NCBI GenBank assembly: GCA_020848935.1
Contig: JADLHF010000011.1
Coordinates: forward strand, 1 to 41,297
From: Acetobacteraceae bacterium
GTDB taxonomy: Bacteria > Pseudomonadota > Alphaproteobacteria > Acetobacterales > Acetobacteraceae
Direction of reading: 5' to 3'
DNA length: 41,297 nucleotides
Under the pieces are notes generated by a model. That model did not search any database and was not told where the DNA came from. It worked only from the letters and a program-made list of their open reading frames with translations. Below, one piece after another: positions 433 to 34,637 of the stretch. Every line of letters starts with the position of its first letter. Within the stretch, counting starts at the first letter, position 1. Position numbers and translations under genes: made by a program.

Positions 433-505
433 TCTTTCCTTTGCTTCCCCTAGCCCCCAGGCGCCCAACCGGTCCATGATGCAAAAAACGACGGGGACTC
501 ACCAC

Positions 506-2791
<2,286 letters not shown>

Positions 2792-2852: not shown

Positions 2853-3003
2853 ACCTCACCCGTGGTGACAGCTTCGCGTTTGCGCCAGTTCACTGAGAGG
2901 CGCGTCAGGCGCGCACGAAACTGGAAGTCAAATTCCATGCCTCCCGAGAGCCTCTCGTTCCCAAAGCGCCGACCTAATTCCGGTTGGATCACTGCGCGCT
3001 TCA

Positions 3004-3032
3004 TTGCGAACTCCGGCAGAACGTGCTATAAT
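3004..3032 (+). promoter_or_regulatory. Sigma70-type promoter for the orphan membrane protein gene
   Basis: TTGCGA at 3004-3009 and a perfect TATAAT at 3027-3032 are separated by exactly 17 nt, about 100 nt ahead of the ATG at 3131. It is among the best housekeeping promoter matches I noticed in the window. It lies where the base composition turns AT-rich, so it probably came in with the gene it serves. Confidence 0.7.
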
Positions 3033-3130
3033 ATCAAACTTAATGGCCTTTCGTTATCGATGCCTATCCCCGAGAATGTACTGACATCATAGCGCAGTAT
3101 GACGGACGGTTTGGCGAAGAGAGGGGCGTT

Positions 3131-4126
3131 ATGTCGAGTGTCTTGAATGCTATTGCGACTGGCAGAACGTTTGTATTCCGAGGTGTGTCCGGAATATTGC
3201 TTCTTTGTTGGATTGTTGCTTTATTATATACTGCATTGTTGACATTTAATACGGGGTTTCGCATAGGATTTGTCAATGGGCTCGGAGTCTACTTGCCACG
3301 TGACGCGGGGGCGCCGACTCCTCCGACGCAAGTCACAGGACAAGGCAGGCTCGACAACAGCTGCCCATCTTCCCAAGATTTGCTTGGGGAGTTTGTATTC
3401 CGCTTTAGAGAGATGCCCAATCATACTGATAACTACCCCCTGATCCACACAATTCTCGATACGGCAATACCAAATTGGGATAAAGTTAAGCGGCCGTCAA
3501 ATCGATTTACCTGCAATCAAAATGAATATGAAGATATTATGGAGCAATATCAATCTCTATTTTCAAAAATATCCTGGAGATTAATATCTATTGTAGAAGC
3601 AAAAGACATAGATCCAAAAAATATTGTTATTGATTCTAGTTTTATATCAAGTAATTTTTTTCAGCACGCGAAATTGGATCCCAAGACAATGTTGCCCACA
3701 GAAATAGTGTATTGGATTAATAAGGAGCGTCAAGCAATCATAAATCAGGAAAAAGAAAACCGACTTTGGGACGCGTTCGTTCGAATGGGTGTTCTCGGTG
3801 CATTTGGTTCTCTATTATTTTTGATTCGAGAATATGTGGCAAGCACGGGTGTCAAAATAAGGGAGTGCGTGTTTCGCCCTATTCTAGGAATTATGTTAGC
3901 GATGGCTGTTTTGGTTGTGGATATTATGACGCATACTGTAATTTCTACATCTGGCATCCTAGAAATGCGCCTTGAACCGCTATACATATTGGGATTGGGG
4001 GCGGGCTTGGCGTCGGAAGTTGCGTATTCGTGGGTCCAAGAGCGGACAAGGACTGCTTGGTCGAAGGCAGAAGAAAGCGGAAAGGCCGATGGCGCTGCTT
4101 TGGGAAAGGCAGAAGAGAAAAGCTGA
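3131..4126 (+). CDS. Orphan AT-rich membrane protein of unknown function
   Basis: I do not recognise this 331-residue protein. It has one transmembrane segment near residues 20-42, then a hydrophilic stretch of about 160 residues with two cysteines (SCPSS and FTCNQ), then three predicted membrane segments near 213-230, 243-265 and 279-297. The tail is short, charged and rich in Ala, Gly and Lys. The small-residue pattern GVLGAFGSLLFLIRE and GLGAGLASEVAYSW resembles C-terminal three-helix membrane modules seen in uncharacterised bacterial proteins; that is a weak impression only. AGAGAGGGG at 3118-3126 is a good ribosome-binding site. The gene is far more AT-rich than its neighbours and uses codons such as AAT, ATA and TTA, a sign of recent transfer. 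An IS element starts 21 bp after its stop without damaging it. Confidence 0.8.
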   Translation: MSSVLNAIATGRTFVFRGVSGILLLCWIVALLYTALLTFNTGFRIGFVNGLGVYLPRDAGAPTPPTQVTGQGRLDNSCPSSQDLLGEFVFRFREMPNHTDNYPLIHTILDTAIPNWDKVKRPSNRFTCNQNEYEDIMEQYQSLFSKISWRLISIVEAKDIDPKNIVIDSSFISSNFFQHAKLDPKTMLPTEIVYWINKERQAIINQEKENRLWDAFVRMGVLGAFGSLLFLIREYVASTGVKIRECVFRPILGIMLAMAVLVVDIMTHTVISTSGILEMRLEPLYILGLGAGLASEVAYSWVQERTRTAWSKAEESGKADGAALGKAEEKS

Positions 4127-4147
4127 TTTTGTCACCAGCGTAGCTAG

Positions 4148-4984
4148 GCTGAGGACTCATTTCAACCAGAGGATGACAGTCGCGGCGATGACGATGGCAG
4201 CGAGGAATATGTCGGCGCAACGGTCGTAGCGTGTTGCGATGCGACGCCAGTCCTTGAGTTTGGCGAACAAGTTCTCGATGAGGTGGCGGTGGCGGTAAGT
4301 TGCCGTGTCGTAGGGATGGAGAACCTTTCGGTTCCTTCGCGGCGGGATGCAGGGCGCGATGCCGCGACCTTGCAGGGCGATACGAAAGTCGTCGCTGTCG
4401 TAACCGCGATCGGCGATCAGTTCTCGGGCTGGCGGCAACACGTCAAGCAGCAGGCCTGCGCCCTTGTGGTCGTTCATCTGGCCTTCGGACAGCAGCAGGA
4501 CGAGCGGTCGACCGCGGCCGTCGCAGACGGCATGCAGCTTCGAGTTCAGTCCGCCTTTGGTGCGACCGATCCGGCGGGCGCCCCCTTTTTCTGCAGAAGG
4601 CTCGCCGATGTGCGATGCGCCTTCAGATGGCTGGAATCGATCATGATCCGCTCTGGTTCGCCTGCCTGGGCGGCCAGATCGGCGAAGATGCGTTTGAAGA
4701 CACCCATCCGCGTCCAGCGGACGTAGCGGTTGTAAAGCGTCTTCGACGGCCCGTAGATTGCGGGTGCGTCGCGCCAGCGCAACCCGTTGCGGATGACATG
4801 GATGATCTCGCTCAGCACGCGCCGATCATCTACCCGCGGCTTCCCGCGAGATCGTGGAAAGTAAGGCGAAATCACCGCAATCTGCGCCGTGGACAGCCAA
4901 AACTGATCACTCATGGCGAGACCCTCCCGCCAATCTCAGAATCATCCAGCGCCGAGCCGGGTCAAGCCTTTATGGGTCCTGAGC
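4148..4984 (-). mobile_element. IS5-family insertion sequence (IS427-like), complete
   Basis: The 837-bp element is bounded by imperfect 13-bp inverted repeats: GCTGAGGACTCAT at 4148-4160 and its partner ATGGGTCCTGAGC at 4972-4984, with 11 of 13 positions matching. It is flanked on both sides by the tetranucleotide CTAG (4144-4147 and 4985-4988), which fits the YTAR-type target duplication of this family. It carries one transposase gene split over two frames. The intact ends, the duplication and the lack of stop codons other than the expected frameshift suggest a recent, possibly still active insertion. Family assignment rests on the transposase; the subgroup is from memory. Confidence 0.9.
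4157..4914 (-). CDS. IS5-family transposase, two frames joined by a -1 frameshift
   Basis: The DDE transposase would cut and join the ends of the surrounding IS. The first frame (4914 down to its stop at 4546-4548) gives 122 residues with MSDQFWLSTAQ, an N-terminal DNA-binding region and the first catalytic Asp in MIDSSHLKAHR. The second frame continues with RIGRTKGGLNSKLHAVCDG, carries the second Asp in LIADRGYDSDD and the Glu in HLIENLFAKLKDWRR, and stops at 4157. The frames meet at an A5G5 run on the minus strand (4581-4590). A -1 slip there gives one continuous protein of about 252 residues, the normal length. Such programmed frameshifting is known in this IS group. A sequencing or mutational frameshift is the alternative, but the run sits exactly where slippage is expected. 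Confidence 0.88.
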
Positions 4985-5092
4985 CTAGTGTCAGAGTAGG
5001 GATGCCACCCCCGACCACCAAATGCCTGGACCTCAGCGACCGTAGGATGCAGTTCGCCTTGGAACCGCACCACCCAAGATCAACCACATCCC

Positions 5093-5127
5093 TTGACATC
5101 CGCTTTGTAGCTACATAAATAGCTACA
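5093..5127 (+). promoter_or_regulatory. brnTA promoter with tandem operator-like repeats
   Basis: A consensus TTGACA at 5093-5098 is followed at 17 nt by an AT-rich -10 region (TAAATA at 5116-5121). The octamer TAGCTACA occurs twice in direct orientation, at 5108-5115 and 5120-5127, 12 bp apart, and each contains the palindrome TAGCTA. The copies straddle the -10, and the second runs into the brnT ATG at 5127. This arrangement suits autorepression by a ribbon-helix-helix antitoxin such as BrnA. The transcript would be nearly leaderless. Confidence 0.6.
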
Positions 5128-5402
5128 TGTCGCCCGAATTCGAGTGGGACGAAGCCAAACGCCTCGCCAACGTCGCCAAGCACGGTATCGACTTCCTCGA
5201 TGCGGCCGCGATCTTCGCCCTGCCGCATCTTGAGGTCGAAGCCACGCTCACCGGCGGCGAGTCCCGCCACCTTGCCATCGGCCCGCTGGACGGTCGGCTC
5301 ATCACTGTCGTCTTCACCCAACGCGGCGGCGCAATCCGCCTCATCTCGGCAAGGAGGTCCCGCCGTGTCGAACGAACCCGATATCAAGCGCTATTCCATT
5401 GA
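5127..5402 (+). CDS. brnT: BrnT family toxin (RelE-like ribonuclease)
   Basis: BrnT toxins are small RelE/ParE-fold ribonucleases that stop translation and are neutralised by BrnA. The 91-residue protein has the family signature: FEWDEAKRLANVAKHGIDF at the N-terminus, the GESRHLAIGPLDGRLITVVF core and the RLISARRSRRVER C-terminal stretch with the basic residues implicated in RNA cleavage. Its start lies on the second operator-like repeat and no ribosome-binding site can be seen. The toxin gene precedes the antitoxin gene, which is the normal order for this system and the reverse of most type II pairs. It overlaps brnA by 38 nt. Confidence 0.9.
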   Translation: MSPEFEWDEAKRLANVAKHGIDFLDAAAIFALPHLEVEATLTGGESRHLAIGPLDGRLITVVFTQRGGAIRLISARRSRRVERTRYQALFH

Positions 5403-5691
5403 GCAGATTCGTGCCCTGCGGGCAGCCGGCGCCAGCCGCACCGACTGGGACCGCCTCGACCGCATGACCGAGGCCGAACTCGAAGCCGCCATCGCCACCG
5501 ACCCCGATTGGAAGGATATCCCCAAGGACTGGTACAAGAACGCCATCCCCGTCCCCCCCGCCCCCAAGCAACTTCTCTCCCTGCGCCTCGACGCCGACAT
5601 CATCGCCTGGTTCCGCGCCCAAGGCCCCGGCTACCAGACCCGCATGAACGCCGTCCTGCGCACCTACATGGCCGCAATTACCCGGCGCTGA
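5365..5691 (+). CDS. brnA: BrnA antitoxin
   Basis: The 108-residue partner of BrnT. The C-terminal part (KQLLSLRLDADIIAWFRAQ, then GYQTRMNAVLRTYM) is the ribbon-helix-helix-like DNA-binding domain of the BrnA family, which also represses its own operon. The N-terminal half would wrap the toxin. The start is GTG at 5365, chosen because a perfect AAGGAGGT (5351-5358) sits 6 nt upstream, inside the end of brnT. This strong site, set against the missing one for brnT, would favour antitoxin synthesis. The stop at 5689-5691 follows the last RHH helix directly. Base composition is like the chromosome, unlike the AT-rich gene at 3131. Confidence 0.88.
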   Translation: MSNEPDIKRYSIEQIRALRAAGASRTDWDRLDRMTEAELEAAIATDPDWKDIPKDWYKNAIPVPPAPKQLLSLRLDADIIAWFRAQGPGYQTRMNAVLRTYMAAITRR

Positions 5692-5898
5692 CCGCAAGTC
5701 CAGCCGGCACCCTACCGCATCGCCGCACGCCGCAACGGTGCGGCAATCAAAGGAACGAGCCACCCTAATTTCCCCCCTCCCCACCCCATCCATGCTAACC
5801 TCCCCCCACGCACCGTCGCCGCGCCAGGGTCCCCCAGCCGTCACGCGCCGTCAAAACCCCGGTCCGACCCCTTGAAAACACCTTCGGGAGGATGCCGC

Positions 5899-10930: not shown

Positions 10931-10976
10931 GATCTTCTTTTTCTGAAGGAAAAGAAGCAAAAAGACGTTCATTCAT
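10931..10976. repeat. AT-rich hairpin unit, single copy
   Basis: The stem CTTCTTTTT with its pairing arm lies at 10934-10957, followed by the CAAAAAGACGTTCATTCAT tail. It sits between the stop of the GNAT-Nudix gene and the start of the CinA-type gene (both minus). In that transcript the unit reads in the reverse orientation, tail first. Confidence 0.8.
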
Positions 10977-11999: not shown

Positions 12000-12097
12000 G
12001 TGGCGGCCGAATGCGGCATGAAGAAGGAAGTGCCGAAATGTGGCGCCCGGCGCAAGGGGGAGGGGAAGGAAGGGAAGGTCAAGGCAAGGGGAAGGAA

Positions 12098-12140
12098 GCG
12101 GTTCTTTTTTGGAAAAAAGAACCAAAAAACTTTTCAATAT
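12098..12140. repeat. AT-rich hairpin unit, single copy
   Basis: Eleven-bp perfect stem GGTTCTTTTTT/AAAAAAGAACC at 12100-12123 with a 2-nt loop, then an AAAAAACTTTTCAATAT tail. It is the GTTC/GAAC variant of the family. It lies just after the stop of the hypothetical gene at 12181 (minus) and about 100 nt before the GNAT-Nudix start. The rest of 12000-12180 shows nothing else recognisable. Confidence 0.8.
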
Positions 12141-12180
12141 CAGATAAGACGGATTGCGGAACGATTCGCGTGTCGGCGGG

Positions 12181-12783
12181 TCAGGGGGTGGTGGCGGCGA
12201 ATTTCGGCATTCGGCCGGGGCGGTAGCGGCGGATCTGGGCCGGGGTGTACTTGCCGTGGCGCGGGGCGGTGGGCGTTTCGCCGGGGGGCGGCCTGGACGC
12301 GTGGGGCTGGGGCGCTTGGGGCTGGGGTGCTTGCGGCTGGGGCCGGATGGGCAGGGCCAGCATTGCGGGCGGGGTGAGGCCGAGCATCCGGCACAGCGGG
12401 CGCAGGATGCGGCCGGCCTGCGGGGCGGCGGCGAGGAAATCGGCAAGGTCGGGGCGGGCCAGGAAATGCTGGAGCTGGCTGGCATGGCCGGCGGCCTGGT
12501 ATCCGACCGCCGCGACAAGCCAGGCGCGGCCGGTGGGGAAATGGGGCTTTTCGCGCTTCGTGCCGGGCCGGCCAGCCCGGGAGGGGCGGGGGCGGGGCAA
12601 GGCGCCGGCCTGCCAACGGTCGAACAGGCGCTGGAACCGCTGCGCGGCCCGGCCAATGCGGGCCCAGGCCAGCATGAACAGGTCGGCGCGCGTGCGATCG
12701 CGGCCGAGATGCGCGCCAATCGCGGCGCGCAGCCCGGTCAGGATATTGGCGAAGAGGGTGGCGAGTGATGACATTGCCGTCAT
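12181..12783 (-). CDS. Conserved-looking hypothetical protein
   Basis: A 200-residue protein I cannot assign. The N-terminal 60 residues look helical (ANILTGLRAAIGAHLGRDR, AWARIGRAAQRFQRLFDRW). A basic linker follows, then another helical segment (GYQAAGHASQLQHFLARPD, LADFLAAAPQAGRILRPL), and a Pro/Gln-rich low-complexity tail with a PQAPQPQAPQP repeat. Codon use and base composition match the neighbours, and the frame is open for 603 nt, which supports a real gene. No signal peptide or membrane helix is evident, so it is probably cytoplasmic. The start could be 12783 or the ATG nine nt further in; neither has a clear ribosome-binding site. Confidence 0.65.
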   Translation of the reverse strand: MTAMSSLATLFANILTGLRAAIGAHLGRDRTRADLFMLAWARIGRAAQRFQRLFDRWQAGALPRPRPSRAGRPGTKREKPHFPTGRAWLVAAVGYQAAGHASQLQHFLARPDLADFLAAAPQAGRILRPLCRMLGLTPPAMLALPIRPQPQAPQPQAPQPHASRPPPGETPTAPRHGKYTPAQIRRYRPGRMPKFAATTP

Positions 12784-12904
12784 TCTACATAACGAAAAAA
12801 CCGCGCCAAGGGGAATCGGCGGATGGGGCGGCAGGCGGGGCGGCTTGCGGGACGGCCTGCCGCATCCGTGCCGGGAGCATTATTTCCATTCATGTGGCCA
12901 GAAT

Positions 12905-13193: not shown

Positions 13194-13279
13194 GGCTTCA
13201 CCCGGCACGCGCGGGCCGGCGCGGCGGGGACGGGAATTCCGGCTTCGTCCCGGCTTGGCGCGAAGAGGAATTCAAGAAG

Positions 13280-13408
13280 AAAGAAGTTCTTTTTTATAAA
13301 AAAGAACCAAAAAATTTCATTCTCTCGCCTGTGGCGCATGGCGGTGCCACGCAATGGATCATGAATGAAGTTTTTTTGCTTCTTTTTGTTCACAAAAAGA
13401 AGAGTCTT
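13280..13408. repeat. Facing pair of AT-rich hairpin units
   Basis: Unit 1 has its stem at 13286-13307 (GTTCTTTTTT/AAAAAAGAAC) with tail to 13320. Unit 2 is inverted: tail ATGAATGAAGTTTTTTT from 13361 and stem at 13379-13402. The 40-nt spacer holds a GTGGC/GCCAC hairpin. The pair lies between two convergent genes (13193 and 13428), where it could stop transcription from both sides. Confidence 0.8.
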
Positions 13409-13427
13409 GTTCCTGCCTTCACCTGCC

Positions 13428-33120: not shown

Positions 33121-33289
33121 GGCTGTTTCCTCCGTGGCTTGCCGGCGATGCTGCCCGACCGCCCCGCGCCGCTCAACCCCAGGCGATGGAACTGGACAGC
33201 CTCCACCCGCCTCGCAGGCACCGGCATCCCGCCGGGTCCCGCACATTGAGCGGTTTGCGCATGGGGTGTTTCATGAGCGGGAAGAAGGC

Positions 33290-33470
33290 AGAATCTTCTT
33301 TTTGTGAACAAAAAGAAGCAAGAAAACTTCAATAATTTTCGTTAGGTAGATCTTCATTACCAGAACAATAATCAGAAAAACGTCCAATCACAGGCCATTG
33401 CATGGCGTCACGCGTAGTTATATGGGAAATGAACAAAAGTTTTTTGGTTCTTTTTTCAAAAAAGAACACT
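33290..33470. repeat. Facing pair of AT-rich hairpin units with long AT-rich spacer
   Basis: Unit 1 has its stem at 33295-33318 and tail CAAGAAAACTTCAATAATT. The inverted unit 2 has tail ATGAACAAAAGTTTTTTG from 33428 and stem at 33447-33467. The spacer of about 90 nt is unusually AT-rich and shows no open frame of interest. The locus fills the 356-nt gap between the enolase-superfamily start (33120) and the aminotransferase stop (33477). Confidence 0.8.
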
Positions 33471-33476
33471 TTTTCG

Positions 33477-34637
33477 CTAACTCCAGCGCCCCAACCGCTC
33501 TGCCGCTTCGGCCATGTCGGCTTCCGGCCCGCAATAGCTGAAGCGCACGAAATGGTGGCCGCGCTGGCGGTCGAAATCCATGCCGGGCGAGGCGGCGATA
33601 CCGGCTTCGGCGAGCATGCGGGCGCAGAAGGCCTGCGAGTCGTTGCTGCGGTCCGCGATGTCGGCGTACAGGTAGAATGCGCCTTCGGCCGGGCTGATGC
33701 GGGGGAAGCCGGCGGCGGGCAGGGCGCGCAGCAGCAGGTCGCGCGAGCGGCGGTAGCGGGCCACGTTGGCATCGAGTTCGGCGGTGCAGTCGAAGGCGGC
33801 TTCGGCGGCGATCTGGGCGATGTGGGGCGCGCTGATGAATAGGTTCTGCGCCAGGCATTCCACCGGGCGGACCAGATCTTCGGGCAGCACCAGCCAGCCG
33901 ATGCGCCAGCCGGTCATGGAGAAGTACTTCGAGAACGAGTTCACCACGATGGCGCTGTCGCTGTAGGCGGCGGCGGTGGCGTGGGGCTGGTCGTAGGTCA
34001 GGCCGTGGTAGATCTCGTCGCTGATCAGCCGCACGCCATGGGCGTGGCACCAGCGGGCGATGGCGGCCAGCTCGTCGGGTGCCAGCATGGTGCCGGCGGG
34101 GTTGCAGGGGCTGGCGACGATCAGGCCGTCGGGCGGCGGGTCCATCGCGGCGAGCATGGCCACGGTGGGCTGGAAGCGGGTTTCCGGGCCAGTTTCCAAC
34201 ATCACCGGGGTGATGCCCAGGGCGGTGAGGATGTTGACGTAGGGCGGGTAGAACGGGGTTGCCATCGCCACCCGGTCGCCTGGGTCGAAGGCGGCGAGGA
34301 AGGCCAGCGGGAAGGCGCCGGAGGCCCCGACCGTCACCGCGATGCGGCCGGCGGGGATGTCCACGCCATACGAGGCACGGCCATGGGCGGCGATTCGCGC
34401 GCGCAGGGAGGGCAGGCCGAATGCCTCAGTGTAGCCCATCGGGGCGCCGGCGGCGAGCGCGCGCTGGGCGGCGGCCACCGCGCCGGCGGGCGCCCCGGTG
34501 CCGGGCTGGCCCACCTCCATGCGGATCACGTGCGGCGCGCCGGGCGGCAGTTGGGCCTGGCGGGCATTGGCCGCGGTGATCACGTCCATCACCATGAACG
34601 GCGGTGCGGCGGCGCCGCTGCCGACCTTGAGCGCCAT
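33477..34637 (-). CDS. Class I/II PLP-dependent aminotransferase
   Basis: A 386-residue fold-type I aminotransferase. The PLP lysine is Lys237 in VVNSFSKYFSMTGWRIGW. The cofactor-binding Asn179 (SPCNPAGT) and Asp207 (LISDEIYHG) are present, and VRFSY near the C-terminus supplies the carboxylate-binding Arg. The sequence style is that of aspartate/aromatic aminotransferase subgroup I-gamma, but the amino donor is not certain. The ATG at 34635-34637 overlaps the upstream gene's TGA by one base (TGATG), so it is translationally coupled to the GGT-like lipoprotein gene. The pair forms a minus-strand operon that ends at a hairpin-repeat locus. Confidence 0.92.
   Translation of the reverse strand: MALKVGSGAAAPPFMVMDVITAANARQAQLPPGAPHVIRMEVGQPGTGAPAGAVAAAQRALAAGAPMGYTEAFGLPSLRARIAAHGRASYGVDIPAGRIAVTVGASGAFPLAFLAAFDPGDRVAMATPFYPPYVNILTALGITPVMLETGPETRFQPTVAMLAAMDPPPDGLIVASPCNPAGTMLAPDELAAIARWCHAHGVRLISDEIYHGLTYDQPHATAAAYSDSAIVVNSFSKYFSMTGWRIGWLVLPEDLVRPVECLAQNLFISAPHIAQIAAEAAFDCTAELDANVARYRRSRDLLLRALPAAGFPRISPAEGAFYLYADIADRSNDSQAFCARMLAEAGIAASPGMDFDRQRGHHFVRFSYCGPEADMAEAAERLGRWS

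Follow-up and report, generated by a model that had tools for sequence, protein, structure and literature searches.

What is the AT-rich gene of no recognised family that lies directly behind maeB in an Acetobacteraceae genome, and how did it come to be there? The stretch of DNA analysed here, referred to as the window, comprises 41,297 nucleotides of one contig. The original prediction for the gene at position 3131 was a recently acquired orphan membrane protein with its own promoter, perhaps a sensor or effector, in a neighbourhood suited to defence genes. We term the protein P0001.

A foreign-looking gene behind maeB

The features of the locus, in window coordinates, are as follows.

488-2791, plus strand (longest ORF from 404): maeB-type malic enzyme/phosphotransacetylase (Pfam malic, Malic_M and PTA_PTB)
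2807-2858, no strand assigned: GC-rich double palindrome directly 3' of maeB, the left junction
2859-4143, plus strand: AT-rich accessory segment (the cargo), defined by GC profile and unique to the source genome among those searched
3004-3032, plus strand: candidate promoter TTGCGA-17-TATAAT, 10 of 12 positions matching, TG ahead of the second hexamer
3131-4126, plus strand: gene for P0001, a membrane protein of 331 aa (ORF list and translation), ATG start; its parts are TM1, a loop of about 170 residues with C78 and C128, TM2-TM4 and a charged tail
3755-4084, plus strand: putative C-terminal three-helix module, about residues 209-318 (profile scores, shuffles, AlphaFold2)
4144-4988, minus strand: IS5-type insertion sequence including flanking CTAG copies (DUF4096, 71.6 bits)
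5127-5402, plus strand: BrnT toxin gene (Pfam PF04365, 82.3 bits)
5365-5691, plus strand: BrnA antitoxin gene (Pfam PF14384, 67.5 bits)

The P0001 frame is a real ORF: within 2860-4143 up to 360 codons pass without a stop, far above the maximum of 217 in 5000 mononucleotide shuffles. The gene differs as sharply from its surroundings in base and codon use as had been claimed. Its GC content is 0.435, its GC3 is 0.414 as against 0.94 in the adjoining maeB, and its CAI-like value is 0.147, where the rest of the tested genes in the window have 0.41-0.86. In 500-bp windows GC is 0.48 and 0.37 at 3001-4000 and 0.67-0.73 on the left side. Across the window and six other loci of the genus, 4 of 186 such windows fall under 0.55 GC, and two of the four are the P0001 gene; the control loci are syntenic with conserved window genes, so the comparison leans to core DNA. 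The near-consensus promoter of the original prediction is present at 3004-3032 but by itself is weak evidence, since the segment has several such sites (5 promoter-like sites observed, 2.2 +/- 1.6 in shuffles). The purine-rich AGAGAGGGG precedes the ATG at 3131 and is a candidate ribosome-binding site. The stretch 3131-4143 is present in a single copy in its own genome and, as predicted, no partner gene was found in the AT-rich segment 2859-4143.

Acquisition is supported by the distribution of the gene: a search of 147 genomes (9 from the genus plus 138 other relatives) found the protein in the source genome only, leaving 8 genomes of the genus and the 138 relatives with no counterpart, and the DNA at the corresponding place differs from congener to congener (see below). 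The insertion sequence and the toxin-antitoxin pair described beside the gene were both recognised. The IS5 transposase lies in two frames on the minus strand (4546-4914 and 4157-4477) and scores 99.1 bits with the transposase model, under its cutoff of 110; copies of the element, starting at 4144, occur elsewhere in the genus. It sits 17 bases behind the P0001 stop codon and, as far as the order of events can be reconstructed, looks to have arrived later than the cargo.

Further repeats lie elsewhere in the window. Short stretches, mostly of about 35 bases, are found at 10934, 12101, 13277, 13368, 21877, 23546, 27785, 27883 and 33435; they are repeated at least nine times in the window as well as in a congener contig, and those at 33280-33480 are T-rich hairpins. 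Positions 12092-12813 and 13275-13424 show about 70-85% identity to many contigs of the same genome and are probably repeats.

Hydropathy peaks agree with the proposed one-plus-three membrane topology, at 19-37 (TM1), 214-232 (TM2), 247-265 (TM3) and, more weakly, near 284-302 (TM4, mean 1.25). The proposed soluble domain with two cysteines corresponds to a loop of 171 residues (42-212) that holds C78 and C128, but the whole protein has four cysteines, at 26, 78, 128 and 246. Lysine and arginine residues number 2 at the N-terminal end, 2 in the TM2-TM3 loop plus R249 at the helix start, 1 in the TM3-TM4 loop and 6 in the tail. Judged by these positive charges, P0001 would be oriented with both ends inside and the large loop outside. 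The loop of about 170 residues is thus probably periplasmic, and a disulphide between C78 and C128 possibly closes it.

Searches with P0001 turned up neither a universally conserved single-copy homologue nor a known housekeeping family, in agreement with the original prediction. No PADLOC-DB 2.0.0 family matched at E <= 1 and no PHROGs family matched; one NCBIfam match was far under its cutoff. The Pfam family YbjM (PF11045) aligned to residues 210-272 with 22.0 bits, under its gathering cutoff of 25, and was rejected because the score lies below the curated cutoff and the match covers only a stretch of helices. Pattern scans, which reach close relatives only, gave 14 candidate stretches in genome contigs and 3 in viral contigs, none of them confirmed, and tblastn of plasmids and phages (E <= 1) gave nothing. 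A scan of 385 genomes of the class (E <= 0.5) found matches in 51 genomes, the source genome included; 29 weak loci whose frames were read were judged unrelated (other transporters, non-coding DNA, broken frames). The best hit of a PDB sequence search, factor H binding protein (E 0.37), was judged to be chance. No relatives of the TM1-TM2 loop were found in the searches made. An AlphaFold2 model of P0001 alone had a pLDDT of 51.7 and was not used.

The three C-terminal helices

TM2-TM4 of P0001 are reminiscent of a recurrent bacterial three-helix pattern. A 94-residue consensus of this pattern served as the query with which real members were fetched. It matched 3 of 200 genomes of the phylum and one plasmid record; one scan yielded 17 loci from 49 candidate stretches, and another gave matches, weak ones included, in 10 of 385 genomes of the class. 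Members share a plan of TM1, a loop, TM2 (GALGSF), TM3 (RP..G..LA) and TM4 (GLFS..ATDKL).

The score of P0001 rose with the size of the profile. With a 5-row profile it reached E 0.74 among 2170 ORFs, first below the members and scan-derived matches, in a ranking whose test rows held P0001 in duplicate from overlapping loci. A 23-row profile improved this to E 0.015, and a combined profile of 36 rows gave 18.1 bits and E 3.9e-4 among 4723 ORFs, with most of the model aligned. On the C-terminal part the combined profile scored 21.9 bits, a value equalled by none of 4000 shuffles that preserved local composition or hydrophobic pattern. The P0001 score was reached by 1 and 0 of 2000 such shuffles with the 23-row profile, by 9 and 4 with the 5-row profile, and by 38 and 86 with subfamily B alone. 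Under the 5-row profile reversed P0001 beats P0001 itself (12.3 vs 9.3 bits). An aquaporin-like decoy, L077, scored 15.9 bits vs 18.1 for P0001 under the 36-row profile; it is a selected decoy, having come from the 385-genome scan.

When P0001 was included in the profile, a scan of 299 genomes of the family found two further proteins besides P0001. One of these (G677/L086) combines TM1 and the module with a long loop that contains two cysteines; its C-terminal part has matches in 11 of 190 genomes of the class, among them two proteins encoded on other contigs of the source genome. In that genome L130:4681-6153 and L131 (L129), on other contigs, encode proteins of about 500 aa that carry the same module behind different N-terminal parts.

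AlphaFold2 on 18 aligned rows of the module gave a three-helix model (pLDDT 85.9, pTM 0.63) in which P0001 residues 196-331 would form helices at 2-42, 48-76 and 87-135 of the modelled segment. In a fold search with this model the best PDB hit, diacylglycerol kinase, had E 1.4, so nothing passed the threshold of E <= 0.001, and a second fold comparison gave Z of at most 5.3, which is uninformative for helical bundles. No Pfam family scored above cutoff with any of 9 distinct module proteins, and the module was not found in the viral contigs and phages searched.

By hydropathy P0001 shows the order of the family, an N-terminal TM, a loop and three C-terminal helices, with the fourth peak weak (1.25). 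It has this order in common with the one-plus-three TM proteins collected here (L051-L074, L078, L086 and L118-L129), together with RP..G in TM3 and a G[LMY].[SA] motif in TM4. Identity within the module is 15-21%, and the loop has no convincing similarity. Unlike P0001, most of these proteins have a short TM1-TM2 loop or added N- or C-terminal parts; the members from G441 and G677 resemble P0001 in their long loop with two cysteines. Pairwise BLASTP of P0001 with L078 and L075 gave no significant match, and only gapped alignments were obtained. It is thus probable, on these comparisons of sequence, that P0001 is a remote relative of an unnamed three-helix module through TM2-TM4 only. The description as an orphan holds in that P0001 has no close homologue and no named family, but not for its three C-terminal helices, which appear to be a remote member of that module.

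The gene neighbourhoods of relatives had been suggested as a place to look for recurrent phage-defence genes, and none recurred near the module relatives inspected. The neighbours are ordinary chromosomal genes with no recurring partner, such as one resembling recG and one resembling MarR, on inspection of their ORFs by eye; on annotated plasmids, relatives lie near genes for ureidoglycolate lyase or for FHA and kinase proteins. Since its relatives occur in ordinary chromosomal contexts, the module itself is no pointer to defence.

The slot behind maeB in congeners

The gene maeB is the left anchor of a variable, genus-specific accessory slot. It is conserved at 90-93% over nearly its full length in six congeners and partly in a seventh, and occurs in 8 of 9 genomes of the genus; the one in which it is lacking, G006, is 68% complete. 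In all eight (the window and seven congeners), AT-rich DNA begins within about 400 bp of the maeB end, and the content differs in each, SIR2 proteins being present in two. A family survey of maeB comprised 30 loci, fetched from the 72 genomes with a match among 120 searched: at least three 250-bp windows under 0.55 GC lie behind maeB in 3 of 3 loci from the genus and in 0 of 27 other family loci, by a criterion fixed after the data were seen.

The palindrome CCAGGGGCCGAGCCCCTGG is present exactly in the window, G001, G002, G003 and G005, and was not found within 4 substitutions in G004, G007 and G008. In the five genomes that carry it, similarity reaches its end, continues through ACCTC and stops, and the cargo begins. 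In G004 and G008 the cargo begins at the very end of maeB. A role for the palindrome as a two-sided exchange site was considered and is not claimed here, as no second copy (up to 4 substitutions) lies beside the cargos examined; the sole exception to its single occurrence is one overlapping self-complementary match in L016.

On the right, BrnT/BrnA follows the cargo in the window, in G003 and partly in G002 (blastn matches of window positions 5035-5711 to L015, and of 5105-5174 and 5427-5676 to L019), and a ROK-kinase gene, identified by eye, forms the flank in G001 and G004. The right flank is thus not uniform across the genus, falling into two groups, and window DNA from 6.9 kb onward lies on other contigs in relatives. 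Within these groups, maeB and BrnT/BrnA enclose three different cargos, and maeB and the ROK-kinase gene enclose two others. Different cargos between the same two flanks support exchange of cargo within each flank group, but do not establish one two-sided site common to the entire genus. No empty site was seen among the eight maeB-bearing genomes, in which three contigs end inside the slot, and no integrase or phage gene was noticed among the cargo ORFs.

PADLOC models recognise four of the other seven occupants, one of them as a generic kinase. G001 carries a SIR2_2 protein that matches PDC-S25 (159 bits for the larger piece), and the SIR2_2 protein of G003 matches PDC-S60 and, weakly, LmuA. 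In G004 an FAD-type protein matches LmuA with 205 bits and is accompanied by a gene for 270 aa. The Ser/Thr kinase of G005 matches the PD-T4-6, MkoA and mad6 models through domains common to many proteins. The two genes of G002 have no Pfam or PADLOC match, the DUF3466/PEP-CTERM protein of G007 is plainly not of a defence type, and the G008 fragment, which lies at the end of a contig, matches PDC-S10 alone (E 0.038). The cargo runs in the same direction as maeB in the window, G001 and G002, and is convergent with it in G003, G004, G005 and G007.

The strongest single result for the slot is that the nine genomes of the genus together contain just two matches to PF13289 (SIR2_2), G001:C111:11387-11749 and G003:C9:36063-36506, and both are in the slot behind maeB. 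Likewise, the only strong LmuA match in the nine genomes is in the slot (E 1.6e-60); the best of the other 11 matches listed has E 6.3e-6, and nearly all of these cover only profile positions of about 53-90, taken to be a generic nucleotide-binding part. The defence neighbourhood of the original prediction is supported by the other occupants of the same slot, but not by the insertion sequence or the toxin-antitoxin pair.

Some of the cargos deserve separate mention. The SIR2-type genes at L018:6854-8190 and L015:5659-8798 (the G001 and G003 slots) are broken in frame in the assemblies, by decay or by assembly errors; since both are broken, slot content may be decaying. The AT-rich cargo of G002 (L019:1110-3325) consists of two genes, the second with C-terminal hydrophobic stretches and an apparent frame shift near 3011-3093; it is a second candidate for an undescribed system. 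At L020:820-3275 (G004), no SMC-like LmuB was noticed beside the LmuA-type FAD protein and its adjoining 270-aa gene.

Defence hotspots between core genes are well documented in E. coli; in the pan-genome study PMC10121019 their cargo is mostly on mobile elements, and they are mostly empty, with a median occupancy of 8%. The maeB slot is like those hotspots in that a conserved core gene flanks differing defence-type cargo. It differs in being occupied in eight of eight genomes, by one or two bare genes with no integrase noticed, and in a right flank that is not the same in all genomes. Of the attributes of a hotspot, we found a conserved anchor beside which related genomes carry different cargo, and cargo enriched in recognised defence genes (4 of 7 other occupants, the kinase being generic); flanks conserved genus-wide on both sides and an unoccupied site were not found among the eight genomes. 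What is new relative to the E. coli hotspots is an always-filled slot of bare genes together with the orphan P0001; this does not amount to a new category. A literature search found no paper on the maeB slot or on the three-helix module, which is not proof of absence.

Possible roles of P0001

Our preferred reading, put forward tentatively, is that P0001 is a horizontally acquired, stand-alone inner-membrane cargo of an integrase-free slot behind maeB, with a possible part in defence or competition. That function is the leading candidate, unproven and slightly ahead of a general membrane role. The pointer to it is the slot: besides the four occupants that defence models recognise, it holds one that is plainly of another kind and two with no assigned identity. 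Under this reading the N-terminus and the charged tail would be cytoplasmic and the loop of about 170 residues periplasmic. At the membrane, the outward domain would meet a component of an incoming phage or a molecule from a competitor. The helical module would hold and transmit, or act in the membrane. The TM module might then block entry or disturb the membrane of the infected cell. P0001 would then be a sensor or effector at the membrane, as the original prediction suggested.

A serious alternative, also short of probable, would give P0001, as an accessory membrane protein, some general role such as envelope sensing, scaffolding or signalling, its place being a matter of having landed in a permissive slot that takes any AT-rich genes. 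The ordinary neighbours of the module relatives, chromosomal and plasmid-borne, point this way, as does the PEP-CTERM/DUF3466 protein in the G007 slot; against it are the PADLOC matches of four of the seven other occupants and the restriction of the genus's only SIR2_2 genes to this slot. We consider it improbable that some prophage, plasmid or competition island, since lost, left P0001 behind as its protein for superinfection exclusion or immunity. Its membrane topology, lone position and foreign composition would suit such an origin, but P0001 has no phage, plasmid or viral contig relative in the sets searched, the module is absent from the viral contigs and phages, and neither a phage gene nor an integrase was noticed beside the cargo. 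It seems very improbable that chance alone retains P0001 as a transient or functionless foreign gene: although it occurs once in all the data searched, other slot genes look broken and an insertion sequence landed just past its stop codon, its 331-codon frame is intact behind a plausible promoter and ribosome-binding site.

A bolder form of the preferred reading, that P0001 founds a new single-gene type of membrane defence, with a variable outward domain on the widespread three-helix module, and that the genus uses the maeB slot as a cassette site, free of integrase, to swap immune cargo of one or two genes, we regard as unlikely on present data.

Being small, always filled and free of integrase, the slot behind this core metabolic gene would offer a compact target in the search for new defence genes of the genus, with P0001 and the two-gene cargo of G002 as named candidates. 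The three-helix membrane module, which is widespread and matched no Pfam entry in this analysis, also deserves attention, since its outward domains vary, and such variation is the pattern expected of sensors or conflict proteins.
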